Below, piece by piece: positions 32,173-41,044 of a DNA stretch of 64,000 bases. Origin of the DNA: Cryomorphaceae bacterium (lineage in GTDB: Bacteria; Bacteroidota; Bacteroidia; Flavobacteriales_D; Crocinitomicaceae). A model generated the notes under the pieces. The model ran no database searches. It was not told where the DNA came from and saw only the letters and a program-made list of their open reading frames with translations. Made by a program: the position numbers and the translations under genes. The stretch lies in contig JAIXXP010000129.1 of assembly GCA_027490665.1 (NCBI GenBank), positions 1-64,000 on the forward strand, in the 5' to 3' direction. Position 1 is the first letter of the stretch. Every line of letters begins with the position of its first letter.

Positions 32173-35100
32173 GTGCAACACAACTACTGGCAGAAATACT
32201 TTGCAACTGGCATCTTACTTTTGATGGTGTTTTTCACTATTGAAGAAGCTGCTGCGCAGACACCCAACCTTCCATTTCCAATTTTCAACCCGCTCAACCC
32301 CTTTCAAAATTTACCCCAAAGTTTTGACCTCGGCGACCCCACTAACCTCAACCAAACAATTGTCTACGACCCCGAGTCCAAAACATTTGTTTTCAGAGAC
32401 ATCATGGGAAAAGACACCTATTTTAGGTCTCCACAAGCCATGACCCTTGAGGAATACCTCCAATACGAAGAGAAAAAAAGCTTTACTCTCGATTGGAAAG
32501 AAATTGTTGCTGAAGAAAGTGCTGAAAACCGTACATTTGAATTACCCATAAAGATTGGCTCCAAAGCATTTGAGAGCTTTTTTGGTTCAGATCAGATCAC
32601 CATTACGCCCGGGGGTAATCTCGAAATCTCACTCGGAGCCAACCACTCGCGCGTAGACAACCCCATTTTACCAATGCGCCAGCGCAACATCACGCGCTTC
32701 GATTTCAATCAGAACATCAACATGGACATCACCGGCCAAATCGGTACCAACATGAAGGTGAACATGAAATACAACACCCGCGCTAACTTCGACTTCGAAA
32801 ACATCTCCAAACTAGAGCGTACAGGTAAAGAAGACGATATCCTTCAAAAAATTGCCTTAGGTCAGGTAAGTCTTGAACTTCCTACCACCCTCATTCCGAG
32901 CTCTCAAACCCTTTTTGGATTCAAGACACAACTTAAATTTGGTCGCTCCACAGTCGACTTCATTGTGGCTCAATCTAAAGGAAAGCGCACCGAAATCAAC
33001 GTTACCGGCAAAGCTCAAGTTCAAAAATTTGAAATCACCGCCGACAACTACGAAGCCAACCGCCACTACTTCCTCAATCTCTACCACCAACAACACTACG
33101 ACACCGCAATGGCAACTTTACCAGTTGTCAATTCCACCGCCTATATTACCCGCATTGAGGTTTGGGTAACGAACCGAAGCAGCATCACCGAAAATACGCG
33201 CAATATTGTAGCCTTTTCTGACTTAGGAGAGGCAAAGCAAAGCAACTGCCAAGGCAATCCGGGCAACTATTCTACACAAGAATTGCCTGACAATCAAGCA
33301 AATGGGCTGTACGACTGGGCTGCTGCACAACCTTTGGTTCGCGGTTTTTCAAATGCTGTATTAGCACTGAGCGCTCAAGTCAATTCACCCGGACCTTTCA
33401 ACCAAGCAGTCGATTACGAAAAAGTAGAAAATGCGCGCAAGCTCAATGAAAATGAATTTACCTATAACGCACTCCTCGGCTATATCTCTTTGAATACAGC
33501 GCTCAATAATGACGAAGTTTTAGCCGTCGCCTACGAATACACTTACCGTGGGCAAACATACCAAATCGGAGAATTCTCAACAGATGGTACCAATGGTCAA
33601 GAAGCCTTGATTCTTAAACTCATCAAACCCACCATTACAAGCCCAATCAACAAAATTTGGGATCTCATGATGAAAAACGTCTACTCTATCGGTGCCTACC
33701 AAGTAGACCAACTCGGTTTTAAAATTGACGTCTATTACAACAATAGCCAAACCTCTGTACTCCAGCCTTTCTTGCCTTTCGATGGCATCGACAAAAAACA
33801 AATTGTCACACTCCTCGATATGGACAAAATCAATCAGAACAACCAACCTTTCTCTGATGGTGTTTTTGACTTTGCCCCATTCAATGTAGTTGGCAACAAA
33901 ATCGACAACGGCGGTACCATCAACCGCAAAAACGGGCGTATTTTCTTTACAACTGTTGAGCCTTTTGGCAAAACTCTTGCCGAAAAACTAACTGCTGCTG
34001 GCGTGCCAAACATATATGTCAACCAATTAGCATTCACAGAACTTTACGACTCTACCAAAACTGCCGCGCAGCAAATCCCAAGTAAAAACCGCTTTGTGTT
34101 CAAAGGAGAGTTCCAGTCTTCCATCTCTTCGGAAATTTCATTAAACGTCATGAATATTCCGCAAGGAGCTGTTGTCGTAACTGCAGGCGGTATGCGCTTG
34201 GTAGAAGGCGTTGACTACACTGTTGACTACGCGTTTAGCCGTGTTAAAATCCTCAACACCGGTATTTTAGAATCCAATACCCCTATCAAAATCTCTATAG
34301 AATCCAATTCTGTATTTGGCTTCCAAGCGCGCTCTATGATTGGCGGCCGTTACCAGTACCGCATCAACGAGAACTTCAAAGTAGGTGCTACCTGGTTGCG
34401 CATGATGGAACGTCCGGTAACTCAAAAAGTTGATTTCGGTAGCGAACCTTTCAAAAATAACGTGCTTGGCGCTGATTTCGCCTTTCGCACCAACGTGCCT
34501 TTACTCACCAAGTTAGTAGACATCTTACCGGTCATCTCGACCAACACCATGTCTACGCTTTCTATGTCTGGAGAAGTTGCTACCCTTAGACCTGGTCAGC
34601 CACGTGCAATCAACAAAGAAGGAACTTCTTACATCGACGACTTCGAGGCTTCCCAGAGCGCTATAGACCTCAAAAACATTGCTGCATGGCGCTTGTCTTC
34701 GGTCCCGCAAGGCCAACCCGACCTCTTCCCCGAAGCTACTAAAAAAGACCTCAGCGCCGGCTACAAACGCGCTAATCTTTCTTGGTACACCATTGACCCT
34801 GTCTTTTATCAAAGCAACCAGCTCACACCTGCGCATATCAAGCAGGACCCAACTATGCTCTACGACAGCCGTATGCGCTTGGTCCAAATGACAGACATCT
34901 TCCCTAACTTGCAATTGCAATACGGTTCTATTTCTAATATCAATGTACTCGACCTCGCCTACTATCCTTCGGAGCGCGGAATGTACAATTTTGACACCAC
35001 GGCAACTGTCGATTCACTCGGACGCTTCACCAACCCTGAAGAGCGTTGGGGTGGTATTATGCGTGGCCTCAGCACCAACGACTTCGAGCTTGCCAACATT

Positions 35101-38100
35101 GAATTCATTCAGTTTTGGGTACTAGACCCCTTCAATCAAGACGCAGAAAATCAAAATCCGAACTCGCCGATGACGGGTGGTGACCTCTACTTCAATCTCG
35201 GTAATATTTCTGAAGACATCTTACCTGATTCTCGCAAAAGTTTCGAGCATGGTTTACCTGCCAATAGCGACCCTATCTTACTCGACAACATCGACACCAC
35301 ACTTTGGTCTCGCATTTCTACACAACAAGTGGTTGTCAATGCTTTTGCTAACGATCCGGCATCGAGAATCAAACAAGATGTAGGTCTTGACGGTTGGGAT
35401 AACAGCGACGAAAGTCAGAGTTATGCTGCGTTTGTGAGCTGGGTGCAAAATAACAACACACTAAGTGCCGCGACCAAAGCACGCATGATCGCCGACCCGT
35501 CTACCGATGACTACAACTACTACCTCGACGACAACTACGACGTCGCACAGCTCAATATTTTGGATCGTTACAAACGATACAACGGCATGCAGGGCAACTC
35601 GCCAACGACAGAAATGTCCGATACAGCCAATGCCTTAGGTTATCCGACCATCGCCTCTAACTTCCCAGACATCGAAGACATCAACCAAGACAACAACCTT
35701 TCTGAGTCAGAAGCTTATTTCCAATACCGCATCAGCCTGCGCCCGGGCGACATGCAAAACGTAGGAAGCAACTTCATCACCAACAAGCAAGTTTATCAAA
35801 ATGGCACCAAGACAGAAACTTGGTACCAATTTAAAGTACCTATTCGCGATTTCGAAAAACGCGTCAATGGCATTCAAGACTTCCGCTCTATTCGCTTCAT
35901 GCGCATGTACATGAAAGGTTTTGACGAGCCTGTTGTATTGCGTTTTGCCCGTTTAGAATTTGTACGTGGCGAGTGGCGTCGTTATTTCCTAGACCTCACC
36001 CAACCTGGCTTGAGCGTCCAGACAGACCCCAACCTCACTTCGTTTAACATTGCCGCACTCAACATCGAAGAAAACGCACAACGCCAGCCAATCAATTATG
36101 TAGTTCCACCAGGTATTGACCGTGAAATTGACCCTTCACAGGTGTATCAGCGTCAGATGAACGAGCAATCTTTGGTTCTAGAAGTTTGTAATCTTCAGGA
36201 CGGCGACGCGCGTGCCGCATACCGCAATGTGCAGTTCGACGTGCGTACCTATAAGAAGTTAAAAATGTTCGTGCATACAGAGTCTGTTGTTCAGAACCAA
36301 CTCAAAGACAACGAACTCACTGTATTTGTGCGCCTAGGTACAGACTACGTCGACAACTACTACGAATACGAGCTCCCGATGAAAGTCACTGATTGGAATG
36401 TAACCAATCCTGACCTCATTTGGCCAGCAGCGAACAACATCGAAATCGAATTTGACCGCCTTCTCGACCTCAAAATGGAACGCAATACCAAACTCGAACA
36501 AGGGGTGCCAGGGGTTTCAAGCATTGTTGAATACGAAAAAGTAGATCCAAACAATCCTAACAACCGCATCAAGGTGAAGGGCAGCCCGAACTTACAAGGT
36601 ATAAAAACCATCATGATCGGTGTGCGTAACCCTTCTAAATCTGATCCAGACAACACTTGGGGGCCAGACAACGGTGACGCCGAATGCGTCAATGTATGGG
36701 TCAACGAAATGCGCCTTACAGATTTTGTCAGTGATGGAGGGTCTGCGGCAGTAGGCCAAATGCAAGTTCAATTAGCTGACTTTGCTGTGGTGCAGGCCGC
36801 AGGTAACTATTCTGGTATCAACTGGGGCGCTGTAGACAGCCGTGTACAAGACCGCCAACGCAACCAACGCATGGGCGCAGACATCAGCACCACTGTGCAA
36901 CTCGGTCAATTCTTTGGCAAACAAGCCCGTGTATCGCTACCATTCTACTACGGCTACTCCATCGGTGTAATCAATCCAGAATACGATCCGTTCAACCCAG
37001 ACATCAAACTTTCAAACTACGACATCGCCACACGCAAAGAGCGCATGCGTTTAGGTCAGGACTTCACAGAACGCCGTTCATACAACTTCACCAATGTGCG
37101 CAAAGAGGCAAAAGCAGGCACCAAACCACAATTTTGGAGCGTCTCTAATTGGTCTGCTACTTACGCTTTTGCTGAAAATATCAGACGTGACTTCAACATT
37201 AAATCAGACATGACCCGCACCTGGACGGGCGCGCTCAACTATAATTATACTTTTGCAGGGAAACCATGGGAACCATTCAAAAAATGGCAACCAGCGCAAA
37301 AGAATCCATGGCTCAAACCAATCAAAGACTTCAACCTTTACTACTTGCCTAAAAATATTGCCTTCACCAACGACTATTCTCGTATCTACAACGAAAGGCA
37401 AATACGCAATATCTCTACCCCTAATTACGAATTTGACCCTATTTACCTCAAACGTTTTGATTGGAACCGCAACTATCAAGTAGGATACGACGTTACCAAA
37501 GCCCTCAAAACGACCTTTACAGCCAACAATCGCTCTATTTTTGAGGAAGGAAACAATGGCGTAGACCGCCGCACCAACCCGGAAGGTTACCAAGAATTCA
37601 TGGATTCTATCCGTTCGCAAATGAATACCTTTGGCCGCACCATGGATTATACACACAACTATTCCATTAGCTACACCCTTCCTTTTGACAAACTTCCAGT
37701 GACCTCATGGTTGTCTTCGAACGTCAAATACGCTGGCACCTACAACTGGCAACGCGCTCCACTAGGGCAAGCAGCTTTTGGAAACACCATTCAAAATACG
37801 CGTTCTATTAACATGACAGCGCAGGGTAATTTAGTCACGCTCTACAACCAAATTCCTTATTTCAAAAGGGTGCTCTCGGACGGCAAAGGAGCCAAAACCA
37901 ATTCTGCCAAAACAGGAGCCGGCGGTGCACAACCAGGAAAAGGTGGGCCTCCAAAGAAAGCAGAATTCAAGCCGAAGAAACCGCTCGAAGAAATGACCGA
38001 AAAAGAGCGCAAAGAATACGACCGTCAACTCGCAAGATTTGAACGCAAACAACTCCGCGAAGAAGAACTGAAAGCCAAAGAAAGTGAACCAATCAACCCT

Positions 38101-39489
38101 GTTTTAGGGACTCTAGCGCGTTTGGTGATGTCCGTGCGCAACATTTCCGGAACCTACACACTTTCTGACGGTACAATGTTGCCAGGCTACAACCAAGAAT
38201 CTAGTGTGCTCGGCATGAACGCCAGCACCTTAGGCCTTACGCCATTTGTCTTTGGTAAACAAGGTTACGATGTATTTGGCAGGGAAACCGGCTTCCACGT
38301 CGGCGACTACGCCCGCGACAACAACTGGTTGGTTCAGAATGAAAACATCAATAAACAATTTATGGTCAACCATACGGCAAACCTACAGCTTAAAGCAACT
38401 TTAGAGCCTTTCAAAGACCTCAATATCAACCTGAACGCTTCGCGCAACTACAGCTCCCAAGCTGGAGAGTTCTATCGTTGGAACCCTGGTATGTCTGCAT
38501 TTGAATCCCAAAGTCGTTTTGAAACGAGCACGCTTACTTACACCACCATCTCTTGGGGTACGGCCTTCGCCAAAATGGACAGCTCTTTCCGCTCTCCTAT
38601 CTTCCAACAAATGATAGCCAATAGCCAACAAGTTTCGCAGCTCATCGGCGTCAACAACGCCAACTCGAGTTCTTTACCTAACGGTTATTACGAGGGTTAC
38701 TCTTCTACCCAACAAGAAGTAGTCATTGGTTCGTTCTTAACGGCCTATACCAATTCGCCAATAGACAGCAAAACGATCAATCCGCGTTCCAATTTGCCAT
38801 TGCCAAACTGGACGATCAACTATGCAGGCCTGAGTAAATTTGCTTTTGCCAAAGACGTTGTGAAATCCTTCAAGCTCAACCACGGCTATTCTTCATCGGT
38901 TTCTGTCAACGGGATGCAAACGAACCTCAACGCAACCCTAGACGCCAACGGAGCGCCAACTGCTCTTGACCTCAACAATAACTTCATTGCTCCAATGCAG
39001 GTTCAAAACATCACCATCACCGAGCGTTTTTCTCCGCTCATTGGTATGCTAGCCACCTGGAACATAATGGGTAAAAACATCACGACCAACTTTGAGTACA
39101 AAAAAGACCGTCAAGCGACCCTCTCCTTGAACAACAATCAGGTAACAGAAACACTCGGTCAAGAAATTGTAGTGGGTACGGTAGTCAATATCCCGAAACT
39201 CAAGTTAGTGCGCAGCATCGATGCAAGCGACCTTCTAATCAACGTCAATTTCTCGTTCCGCGATAACGCTACTGTTATTCGTAAAGTAGTTGAAAATACC
39301 AATATGGCCACTGCCGGGCAAACCACCGTAAGCTTCAAGCTAGATGCCAACTACAAACTCAACGAATACTTAAGCGCAATTTTCTACTACGAACAATTCA
39401 TTAATACACCGAAAGTTTCCTTGAGCTACCCTACAGGTAACCTCAAAACAGGAATCACACTTCGTTTCGACCTCAATGGCTTGAAATAA
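32173..39489 (+). CDS. sprA: SprA, outer-membrane translocon of the type IX secretion system
   Basis: 2438 residues, the expected size of this giant 36-stranded barrel. The GTG at 32173 starts two bases after the ruvA stop and gives a clean signal peptide (YFATGILLLMVFFTIEEAAAQ). Duplicated SprA N-terminal modules are visible, for example FGSDQITITPGGNLEISLGA and IPQGAVVVTAGGMRLVEGVDY. Many alternating beta strands follow, ending in a typical barrel strand (TGITLRFDLNGLK). Residues about 1905-1960 form a Lys/Glu/Gly/Pro-rich insert, probably a disordered periplasmic or plug loop. SprA exports proteins with CTD sorting tails, such as those at 21229 and 60524, and supports gliding in relatives. 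No other T9SS gene is in the window. Confidence 0.96.
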   Translation: MQHNYWQKYFATGILLLMVFFTIEEAAAQTPNLPFPIFNPLNPFQNLPQSFDLGDPTNLNQTIVYDPESKTFVFRDIMGKDTYFRSPQAMTLEEYLQYEEKKSFTLDWKEIVAEESAENRTFELPIKIGSKAFESFFGSDQITITPGGNLEISLGANHSRVDNPILPMRQRNITRFDFNQNINMDITGQIGTNMKVNMKYNTRANFDFENISKLERTGKEDDILQKIALGQVSLELPTTLIPSSQTLFGFKTQLKFGRSTVDFIVAQSKGKRTEINVTGKAQVQKFEITADNYEANRHYFLNLYHQQHYDTAMATLPVVNSTAYITRIEVWVTNRSSITENTRNIVAFSDLGEAKQSNCQGNPGNYSTQELPDNQANGLYDWAAAQPLVRGFSNAVLALSAQVNSPGPFNQAVDYEKVENARKLNENEFTYNALLGYISLNTALNNDEVLAVAYEYTYRGQTYQIGEFSTDGTNGQEALILKLIKPTITSPINKIWDLMMKNVYSIGAYQVDQLGFKIDVYYNNSQTSVLQPFLPFDGIDKKQIVTLLDMDKINQNNQPFSDGVFDFAPFNVVGNKIDNGGTINRKNGRIFFTTVEPFGKTLAEKLTAAGVPNIYVNQLAFTELYDSTKTAAQQIPSKNRFVFKGEFQSSISSEISLNVMNIPQGAVVVTAGGMRLVEGVDYTVDYAFSRVKILNTGILESNTPIKISIESNSVFGFQARSMIGGRYQYRINENFKVGATWLRMMERPVTQKVDFGSEPFKNNVLGADFAFRTNVPLLTKLVDILPVISTNTMSTLSMSGEVATLRPGQPRAINKEGTSYIDDFEASQSAIDLKNIAAWRLSSVPQGQPDLFPEATKKDLSAGYKRANLSWYTIDPVFYQSNQLTPAHIKQDPTMLYDSRMRLVQMTDIFPNLQLQYGSISNINVLDLAYYPSERGMYNFDTTATVDSLGRFTNPEERWGGIMRGLSTNDFELANIEFIQFWVLDPFNQDAENQNPNSPMTGGDLYFNLGNISEDILPDSRKSFEHGLPANSDPILLDNIDTTLWSRISTQQVVVNAFANDPASRIKQDVGLDGWDNSDESQSYAAFVSWVQNNNTLSAATKARMIADPSTDDYNYYLDDNYDVAQLNILDRYKRYNGMQGNSPTTEMSDTANALGYPTIASNFPDIEDINQDNNLSESEAYFQYRISLRPGDMQNVGSNFITNKQVYQNGTKTETWYQFKVPIRDFEKRVNGIQDFRSIRFMRMYMKGFDEPVVLRFARLEFVRGEWRRYFLDLTQPGLSVQTDPNLTSFNIAALNIEENAQRQPINYVVPPGIDREIDPSQVYQRQMNEQSLVLEVCNLQDGDARAAYRNVQFDVRTYKKLKMFVHTESVVQNQLKDNELTVFVRLGTDYVDNYYEYELPMKVTDWNVTNPDLIWPAANNIEIEFDRLLDLKMERNTKLEQGVPGVSSIVEYEKVDPNNPNNRIKVKGSPNLQGIKTIMIGVRNPSKSDPDNTWGPDNGDAECVNVWVNEMRLTDFVSDGGSAAVGQMQVQLADFAVVQAAGNYSGINWGAVDSRVQDRQRNQRMGADISTTVQLGQFFGKQARVSLPFYYGYSIGVINPEYDPFNPDIKLSNYDIATRKERMRLGQDFTERRSYNFTNVRKEAKAGTKPQFWSVSNWSATYAFAENIRRDFNIKSDMTRTWTGALNYNYTFAGKPWEPFKKWQPAQKNPWLKPIKDFNLYYLPKNIAFTNDYSRIYNERQIRNISTPNYEFDPIYLKRFDWNRNYQVGYDVTKALKTTFTANNRSIFEEGNNGVDRRTNPEGYQEFMDSIRSQMNTFGRTMDYTHNYSISYTLPFDKLPVTSWLSSNVKYAGTYNWQRAPLGQAAFGNTIQNTRSINMTAQGNLVTLYNQIPYFKRVLSDGKGAKTNSAKTGAGGAQPGKGGPPKKAEFKPKKPLEEMTEKERKEYDRQLARFERKQLREEELKAKESEPINPVLGTLARLVMSVRNISGTYTLSDGTMLPGYNQESSVLGMNASTLGLTPFVFGKQGYDVFGRETGFHVGDYARDNNWLVQNENINKQFMVNHTANLQLKATLEPFKDLNINLNASRNYSSQAGEFYRWNPGMSAFESQSRFETSTLTYTTISWGTAFAKMDSSFRSPIFQQMIANSQQVSQLIGVNNANSSSLPNGYYEGYSSTQQEVVIGSFLTAYTNSPIDSKTINPRSNLPLPNWTINYAGLSKFAFAKDVVKSFKLNHGYSSSVSVNGMQTNLNATLDANGAPTALDLNNNFIAPMQVQNITITERFSPLIGMLATWNIMGKNITTNFEYKKDRQATLSLNNNQVTETLGQEIVVGTVVNIPKLKLVRSIDASDLLINVNFSFRDNATVIRKVVENTNMATAGQTTVSFKLDANYKLNEYLSAIFYYEQFINTPKVSLSYPTGNLKTGITLRFDLNGLK

Positions 39490-39960: not shown

Positions 39961-39991
39961 GCAATATTCACAAAAAATACCGCAATATTCA
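39961..39991. repeat. Pair of 10-bp direct repeats, GCAATATTCA
   Basis: GCAATATTCA occurs at 39961-39970 and 39982-39991, start to start 21 bp, about two helical turns. The pair sits about 50-80 bp upstream of the predicted small RNA and downstream of the acetyltransferase gene, a position suiting a regulator site, but no factor is known. Confidence 0.4.
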
Positions 39992-40038
39992 GCCAATTCG
40001 ATGTGATGTTCATTTGAATAACAGCCCTAACAAAATCA

Positions 40039-40270
40039 TTGTAAGTTTATTCTTGAAATAAGGAGAGAAACAGGTAACTTCTTTTGCATAGCAGTTGACA
40101 TGCTGCTTGGAGAGGCAGTTTCATTTTCTAGTTTGATAAGAGTTTAATAGTTTTTGTCAACGTCCGAAAGGAATATGCACAAGAAGTTCCTGTCCTTATT
40201 ACTTACAACGTACCACTCAGACAGTTTTGTCTACTACTAGGAAAAGGGCTGATTCGTCAGTCCTTTTTTT
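40039..40270 (+). ncRNA. Predicted structured small RNA with intrinsic terminator
   Basis: The 313-bp gap 39944-40256 has no credible ORF but folds as one branched unit. Nested pairings, outermost first: TTGTAAGT 40039-40046 with 40201-40208; AATAAGG 40057-40063 with 40194-40200; ACAGG 40070-40074 with 40189-40193; AACTTCTT 40076-40083 with 40181-40188; TGCATA 40085-40090 with 40174-40179; GTTGACA 40094-40100 with 40155-40161. Every pair is Watson-Crick. At the junction TCC-GAAA-GGA (40163-40172) makes a GNRA-capped mini-hairpin, and CTGCTT/AGGCAG (40103-40118) an apical one. A 5-bp hairpin (40219-40232) and a strong terminator (40242-40270) follow. No plus-strand gene lies downstream, so this is not a leader. 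Size and long-hairpin shape recall 6S RNA, but I see no diagnostic 6S sequence. Promoter uncertain (TTCATTTG at 40009-40016 is the best candidate). Confidence 0.6.
40242..40270 (+). terminator. Intrinsic terminator of the predicted small RNA
   Basis: An 11-bp stem (40242-40252 with 40257-40267, one G-U) closed by a TTCG tetraloop and followed by T through 40270. The 3' arm contains the stop codon of the convergent cyclase gene (40257-40259 on the minus strand). The T-tract exists only for plus-strand transcripts. Confidence 0.85.
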
Positions 40271-41009
40271 CGTTTATAGCATACAGCAATGGCCTACTTG
40301 GGGCGGCATCATTGGTGAAATGAGCTACTTGTAACTCTAAGACATACTTCCCGTCCAGAACGTCATTGGGAACAAAAATCAATTCAGATATAGTTCGGTC
40401 TGCAATTGGAGCCTCCGGAACCTTCCAAAAAGCATGATGAAAAGCCAATACGCCAGCATCCTCTTCCCTATCTACTGATGGTGTATCTACCAAAAAATGC
40501 TTGACGGCTAATTGATCCAATAAATCGACAACCCCAACATCGAAATAACAAGGATTGGTACCCGAATAATTCATCGACATTTTTTCATCGTTGTTGGGTA
40601 ATGTTCGAACAATAATAGCTTCAGTAAATGCTGCATTTAATAAAGACTCCAACTGATCTGCAAAAACAACCTGATCGCCATTAGCCATCACTCTTGGCGT
40701 AACACTTACTAGCGTCGCCTTGAAAAAATATTGATTCAAAGCCAGGCTAACCGGATAAATATCTTTACTAATGTGACCATAAGACTCCGTATGTGTGCCA
40801 TGACCATGTGGATTGAAAAACACATCGCGAAAATTAACGGCACCACCTTCTGCCACGCTGCCCACAAAACCATTTGCGCGAACAGGTTCCATGCGCGGAG
40901 CGTCTACATACCACGCTCTTGGGTTGTCTACAGAAGCACTTAGTGCTAAAGAAAGGTCGATAGGAGCGCTAGTGTCAATAAAATGCTGTGGGTCGAGGTA
41001 AAAAATCAT
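40257..41009 (-). CDS. Cyclase-family metal-dependent hydrolase (kynurenine formamidase-like)
   Basis: 250 residues from the ATG at 41009. A further in-frame ATG at 41042 would abut the glyS start and lies upstream of a TATTTTTA box (41021-41014) that ends 4 nt before 41009, so I prefer 41009. NPHGHGTHTESYGHIS is the Cyclase-family metal-binding motif (His-x-Gly-Thr-His), and FDVGVVDLLDQLAVKHFLVDTPSVDREEDAGVLAFHHAFW supplies the later conserved Asp/Glu/His residues. Relatives include bacterial kynurenine formamidase and isatin hydrolase. The substrate is unknown and no tryptophan-degradation gene is nearby. Confidence 0.82.
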   Translation of the reverse strand: MIFYLDPQHFIDTSAPIDLSLALSASVDNPRAWYVDAPRMEPVRANGFVGSVAEGGAVNFRDVFFNPHGHGTHTESYGHISKDIYPVSLALNQYFFKATLVSVTPRVMANGDQVVFADQLESLLNAAFTEAIIVRTLPNNDEKMSMNYSGTNPCYFDVGVVDLLDQLAVKHFLVDTPSVDREEDAGVLAFHHAFWKVPEAPIADRTISELIFVPNDVLDGKYVLELQVAHFTNDAAPSRPLLYAINEKKD

Positions 41010-41013
41010 AGAG

Positions 41014-41021
41014 TAAAAATA
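41014..41021 (-). promoter_or_regulatory. Candidate -7 box of the cyclase gene
   Basis: On the minus strand TATTTTTA (one mismatch to TAnnTTTG) ends 4 nt before the ATG at 41009, another leaderless arrangement. Confidence 0.35.
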
Positions 41022-41031
41022 GTGCTTTTCG

Positions 41032-41039
41032 TATCTTTG
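41032..41039 (+). promoter_or_regulatory. -7 box of glyS, directly before the start codon
   Basis: TATCTTTG, perfect TAnnTTTG, ending 5 nt before the ATG at 41045, so the glyS mRNA is predicted to be leaderless. No clear -33 TTG. Confidence 0.55.
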
Positions 41040-41044
41040 CAACT

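Follow-up and report, generated by a model that had tools for sequence, protein, structure and literature searches.

The sibling small RNAs of the Qrr and CsrB/RsmYZ types are controlled by two-component systems, and such control is well known for protein-sequestering RNAs of the CsrB/RsmZ type. Little is known about regulatory RNAs of Bacteroidota outside Bacteroides. In this phylum, the described 6S RNAs (RF01685, 6S-Flavo, and RF01693, Bacteroidales-1) form a long imperfect hairpin with a large conserved loop. In the agr system of Staphylococcus, a LytTR pair lies beside the gene of a structured RNA, RNAIII, and the AgrA repeats at the RNAIII promoter are centred near -60 (PMC4227749). LytTR regulators typically use two 9-11-nt repeats, 11-13 nt apart, which in the case of E. 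coli YpdB are direct repeats of GGCATTTCAT (PMC4847170). A limited full-text search turned up no description of a LytTR system in Bacteroidota whose output is an RNA.

Here we describe a candidate for such a system. In the window, the whole 64,000-nt stretch of DNA that was analysed, positions 40055-40270 are best explained as encoding an autonomous regulatory RNA, about 215 nt long, with the predicted 5' end GAAAUAAGG. It is probable that this RNA, a new family, is the output of a histidine kinase with TPR repeats and a LytTR regulator acting through repeats spaced at 21 bp. The locus contains the following features:

39963-40012, + strand: three direct repeats with a period of exactly 21 bp (AATATTCA at 39963-39970, AATATTCA at 39984-39991, GATGTTCA at 40005-40012), putative LytTR sites
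40042-40049, + strand: TAAGTTTA, putative -7 element of the Bacteroidota TAnnTTTG type, from its sequence and a spacing to the RNA start that is conserved in relatives
40055-40206, + strand: conserved core of the structured RNA, family of model R1, from the covariance match and relatives
40057-40066, + strand: near-invariant 5' leader, pairing with 40193-40200 (P0) or else with the linker
40071-40090, + strand: 5' side of the main stem (CAGG, ACTTCTT, TGCATA), partner 40174-40192
40103-40118, + strand: hairpin CTGCTT-GGAG-AGGCAG, paired in 97-98% of relatives' cells
40119-40155, + strand: linker UUUCAUUUUCUAGUUUGAUAAGAGUUUAAUAGUUUUU, near-invariant among relatives
40163-40172, + strand: junction mini-hairpin TCC-GAAA-GGA, varying among relatives
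40174-40200, + strand: 3' side of the main stem
40207-40241, + strand: 3' tail with a small AGAC/GTCT hairpin and the motif UACUACUA at 40232-40239
40242-40270, + strand: intrinsic terminator with a TTCG loop, from sequence and fold, overlapping the 3' end of the convergent cyclase gene
40257-41042, - strand: putative cyclase gene (PF04199), convergent, its 3' end overlapping the RNA terminator

The plus strand of 40020-40280 folds with a minimum free energy of -73.6 kcal/mol against -53.7 +/- 4.8 for shuffled sequences (z -4.2; 0 of 200 shuffles as stable), and all sampled relatives were likewise more stable than their shuffles (mean z -5.6, n=10, and -4.4, n=12). The reverse strand of the same interval also folds well (z -4.7 against shuffles), as expected of a long hairpin, and the plus orientation is therefore taken from the terminator, the promoter and the relatives. 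The conserved unit starts at 40055 with the sequence GAAATAAGGAG. No match to Rfam 15 was found at the gathering score in the window or at the loci of 15 relatives, and no ORF within the RNA is conserved among relatives, in which the short internal ORFs vary; an AAGGAG-ATG combination inside some RNA copies of genus g32 is absent from g27 and from g1, the genus of the window. The sole match of a permissive Rfam search of the window (E 5), SraG with 19.3 bits against a cut-off of 50, is attributable to chance. An earlier note on this DNA had proposed a structured RNA, encoded by a separate plus-strand gene and possibly of a new family. The first of these proposals held, through the fold and compensatory changes in relatives; the other two are supported by a conserved promoter region and a terminator belonging to the RNA itself, by covariation and by the lack of an Rfam match or conserved ORF. 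The note had placed the nearest plus-strand gene end 300 bp upstream, whereas the acetyltransferase gene on the same strand actually ends 112 nt before the RNA start at 40055. Beyond it lies an ORF at 32173-39489 (+, 2438 aa), which from its length we take to resemble the gliding/secretion protein SprA.

Five helices are borne out by relatives (40057-64/40193-200, 40071-74/40189-192, 40077-83/40181-187, 40085-90/40174-179 and 40094-99/40156-161), as are the hairpin at 40103-118 with its GGAG loop and the GAAA mini-hairpin at 40163-172. Within the genus, 39 copies, which are non-independent samples, were aligned, and a structure written from the window sequence was scored on them: 23 of 40 pairs had changes on both sides, in 94 cells as against 29 in shuffled and at most 33 in slid controls. 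Across the family, such changes affected 38 of 40 pairs (373 cells against 118 in the control), in an alignment of 57 matches from several genera that leans towards the structure because the sequences were fitted to the model, and two of them are matches on the opposite strand. Both counts, together with the fold scores of the relatives, show that the helices are real, and compensatory changes of the kind that the earlier note expected of a true fold are thus present at both levels. Its nested helices were upheld by covariation in their inner part; the outermost, GTAAGT/ACTTAC, uses bases of the -7-like promoter element TAAGTTTA and has disappeared from L007-L010 and L012 with no compensatory change. 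The GNRA mini-hairpin that it saw at the junction recurs in the structure of relatives, though it is variable there. The comparative data speak for the hairpin CTGCTT-GGAG-AGGCAG at 40103-40118, and also for GTTGAC pairing with GTCAAC. The most conserved part of the RNA is the 37-nt linker that follows this hairpin, though it is mostly unpaired; in other genera, a small hairpin, AAGAG[UAUAACAG]UUCUU, can arise within it. In addition, 10 of 11 bases of the leader AAAUAAGGAGA (40056-40066) are pairable with UUUUCUAGUUU of the linker (40124-40134), and both strands hardly vary. By pairing alternately with the 3' strand or the linker, the leader could make the RNA a switch.

When 40030-40275 was used as a BLAST query, 33 of 60 genomes had a relative, and all 33 are of the window's genus. 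With model R1, the RNA was detected in 70 of 299 genomes of the order; these belong to a single family, Crocinitomicaceae, and to six genera. In a seventh genus, g24, it was found beside the regulator gene. Carriers include the cultured isolate Taishania pollutisoli CZZ-1 and Fluviicola MAGs. The RNA is best read as a new family that occurs in seven genera of Crocinitomicaceae (Flavobacteriales). A pattern match in Mariniflexile lies inside a coding sequence and is a chance match. Most carriers have one copy per genome, and some genomes have two or three copies in tandem at intervals of about 300 bp, every one with a promoter region/leader and a terminator of its own, plus a divergent copy. 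In the tandem arrays L018, L019, L021, L022, L026 and L131, the last copy is divergent, lacks the GAAATAAGGAG leader and adjoins the cyclase gene.

Two to three direct repeats of RATRTTCA with a 21-bp period lie upstream of the RNA genes, that of the window included. In 42 loci of the family, the best repeat pair has a period of 21 in 35 and is free of mismatches in 18, with the start of the proximal repeat mostly 51-53 nt ahead of that of the RNA; a strict repeat pattern gave 33 matches in 22 genomes against 1 for the reversed control. The motif and the YpdB repeat GGCATTTCAT have TTCAT in common. This overlap and the repeat layout are consistent with LytTR-type sites, but are not proof of them, and the repeats could be read by a factor other than the LytTR regulator.

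The gene context was unexpected. In g27, g32 and g35, the RNA lies about 97 nt downstream of genes for a TPR histidine kinase (Pfam TPR and His_kinase, PF06580) and a 247-aa regulator (Response_reg, PF00072, and LytTR, PF04397), all on the same strand, and g24 has the same arrangement. In G190, of the window's genus, a weak model match to the RNA adjoins the regulator, and in G108 a shortened RNA lies beside it. In g22, in g25 and in most members of the window's genus, the RNA does not adjoin the pair; the window's genome has its regulator (62% identity) on another contig, at G000:C53:29782-30513, with the kinase adjoining. Among 28 genomes tested, a regulator orthologue of at least 58% identity was found in all 21 that bear the RNA; of the 7 without the RNA, 3 have no orthologue but only paralogues at about 42-44% identity. 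The regulator is present and the RNA was not found in G060, G105, G120 and G007.

Adjacency, co-occurrence with the regulator, and the period and layout of the repeats are the grounds on which we judge the RNA to be probably the output of this kinase/regulator pair. The best reading of these comparisons is that the RNA would be wired comparably to RNAIII in agr, but would not be homologous to it. As in agr, a LytTR pair lies beside a structured RNA gene (in g24, g27, g32, g35 and G190, though not adjacent in the window's genome), and direct repeats precede the RNA promoter, with the 21-bp period in 35 of 42 loci, the layout only being compared. Unlike agr, the neighbourhood of the RNA showed no agrB/agrD signal peptide genes, the conserved neighbours being kinase, regulator and cyclase; unlike RNAIII, the RNA has no conserved ORF such as that of delta-hemolysin. 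Moreover, there is no relation in sequence or fold, the phylum is another one, and the kinase carries TPR repeats. With Qrr and CsrB/RsmYZ, the family shares tandem copies in some genomes, a strongly conserved single-stranded stretch and upstream regulator sites, but no sequence relation. Kinase, regulator, repeats and RNA form a clear unit that is open to testing and that occurs in T. pollutisoli CZZ-1 as well as in Fluviicola MAGs.

The anatomy of the genes and their co-occurrence suggest that a signal would pass through the TPR histidine kinase to the LytTR regulator, which would bind the direct repeats upstream of the RNA promoter and switch on transcription of the RNA; the RNA would then act in trans. 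How it might do so is a matter of tentative proposals. Our leading proposal, though we hold it rather doubtful, is that the RNA pairs with translation starts: the exposed U-rich linker UUUCAUUUUCUAGUUUGAU, which has AAAAUGAAA in its complement, would make the first contact and the UACUACUA tail a second one. A-rich translation starts are complementary to the linker, and a search for the linker complement gave about 83 non-self matches against 48 for the reversed control. This search revealed no conserved antisense target, and the excess could be explained by common AAAATGAAA starts. In the 3' tails before the terminator, UACUA occurs 92 times against 8 expected in 38 loci, with up to 7 copies per RNA (including the tails of L061-L086), and a second contact with RNA or protein is therefore favoured.

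The same enrichment could be taken to mean that the repeated UACUA tail titrates an RNA-binding protein under two-component control, following the logic of CsrB/RsmZ, where such control is known. We consider this unlikely, since the window's RNA has only one UACUACUA and a few carriers lack the motif, UACUA differs from the GGA of CsrA sponges, and no candidate protein accompanies the proposal.

RATRTTCA repeats with a period of 21 also precede rpoD, the gene of the primary sigma factor, in several genera (g1, g27 and g32). The rpoD repeat pair has no mismatch in G213, G182, G002, G015, G291 and G003, and one or two in G299, G013, G020 and the window's genome (shuffle p <=0.005); no pair was found at rpoD in the RNA-less G042, G068 and G044. 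Many RNA-bearing genomes have no clear rpoD pair, so the link is limited to part of the family. Repeats common to the RNA gene and rpoD suggest a connection with global transcription control. It is conceivable, but improbable, that both are under a single LytTR system and that the leader switch (3' strand versus linker) lets the RNA act on RNA polymerase or on the expression of rpoD, as a second global RNA regulator beside 6S; in the window's genus, in which a clear 6S was rarely found, it may then have assumed part of the 6S role. The upstream repeats of rpoD were seen at loci L218-L247 and L308-L337, and in the window's genome at G000:C139:616-1065.

Position alone could also suggest a cis element, either a 3' structure or terminator of the acetyltransferase mRNA, whose gene lies 112 nt upstream on the same strand, or a terminator common with the convergent cyclase gene, which is the downstream neighbour of the RNA in most loci. 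This is very unlikely: the upstream gene varies among genera (acetyltransferase, response regulator, cysteinyl-tRNA synthetase and others) but the RNA is retained together with its own promoter region, tandem copies stand alone, and a terminator has no need of a near-invariant loop.

The earlier note had also suggested that this might be the 6S RNA of the lineage, which binds the RNA polymerase holoenzyme by mimicry of an open promoter. This is the least credible reading, for although the RNA is a long hairpin with a large conserved internal loop, as the Bacteroidota 6S RNAs are, occurs once per genome in most carriers and has a possible link to the primary sigma factor through common upstream repeats, its junction with inner hairpins is unlike the plain 6S bubble, the conserved 6S motif is missing, and a 6S RNA lies elsewhere in the same genomes. 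In the covariance comparison that the earlier note had in mind, the RNA matched none of RF00013, RF01685 and RF01693 at the gathering score, and RF00013 had no match in the window's genome, while five controls were detected.

The separate 6S RNAs of Crocinitomicaceae fall below or outside the present Rfam models, and searches with RF01685 and RF00013 miss them. RF01685 gave matches in only three genomes, of family f3 and below the cut-off, which also resemble RF01693. From these three matches we built model R2, which found 6S in 46 of 160 genomes, including Crocinitomicaceae of g21, g22, g24, g25, g28 and g31. A pattern search added g27 and g35, and the family-specific model R3 added g23, g26, g29, g32 and G012 of the window's genus. 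These 6S RNAs (L356-L373 and L375-L387) have the form AATGGCGGGCC...GGATTACA with a closing stem CCCATGC/GCATGGG. They lie at loci other than that of the RNA in carriers of g22, g24, g25, g27, g32 and g35 and in G012; carriers in at least seven genera thus possess a 6S besides this RNA. Within the window's genus, only 1 genome of 24 yielded a clear 6S and the other 23 did not, a point in favour of the 6S reading. A weak 6S match in G008 of this genus (L389, 1501-1722), with TTTTTGAAAG, CTAAAATTTT, GGGCTTCACC and AGATTAC, may be a strongly diverged 6S.
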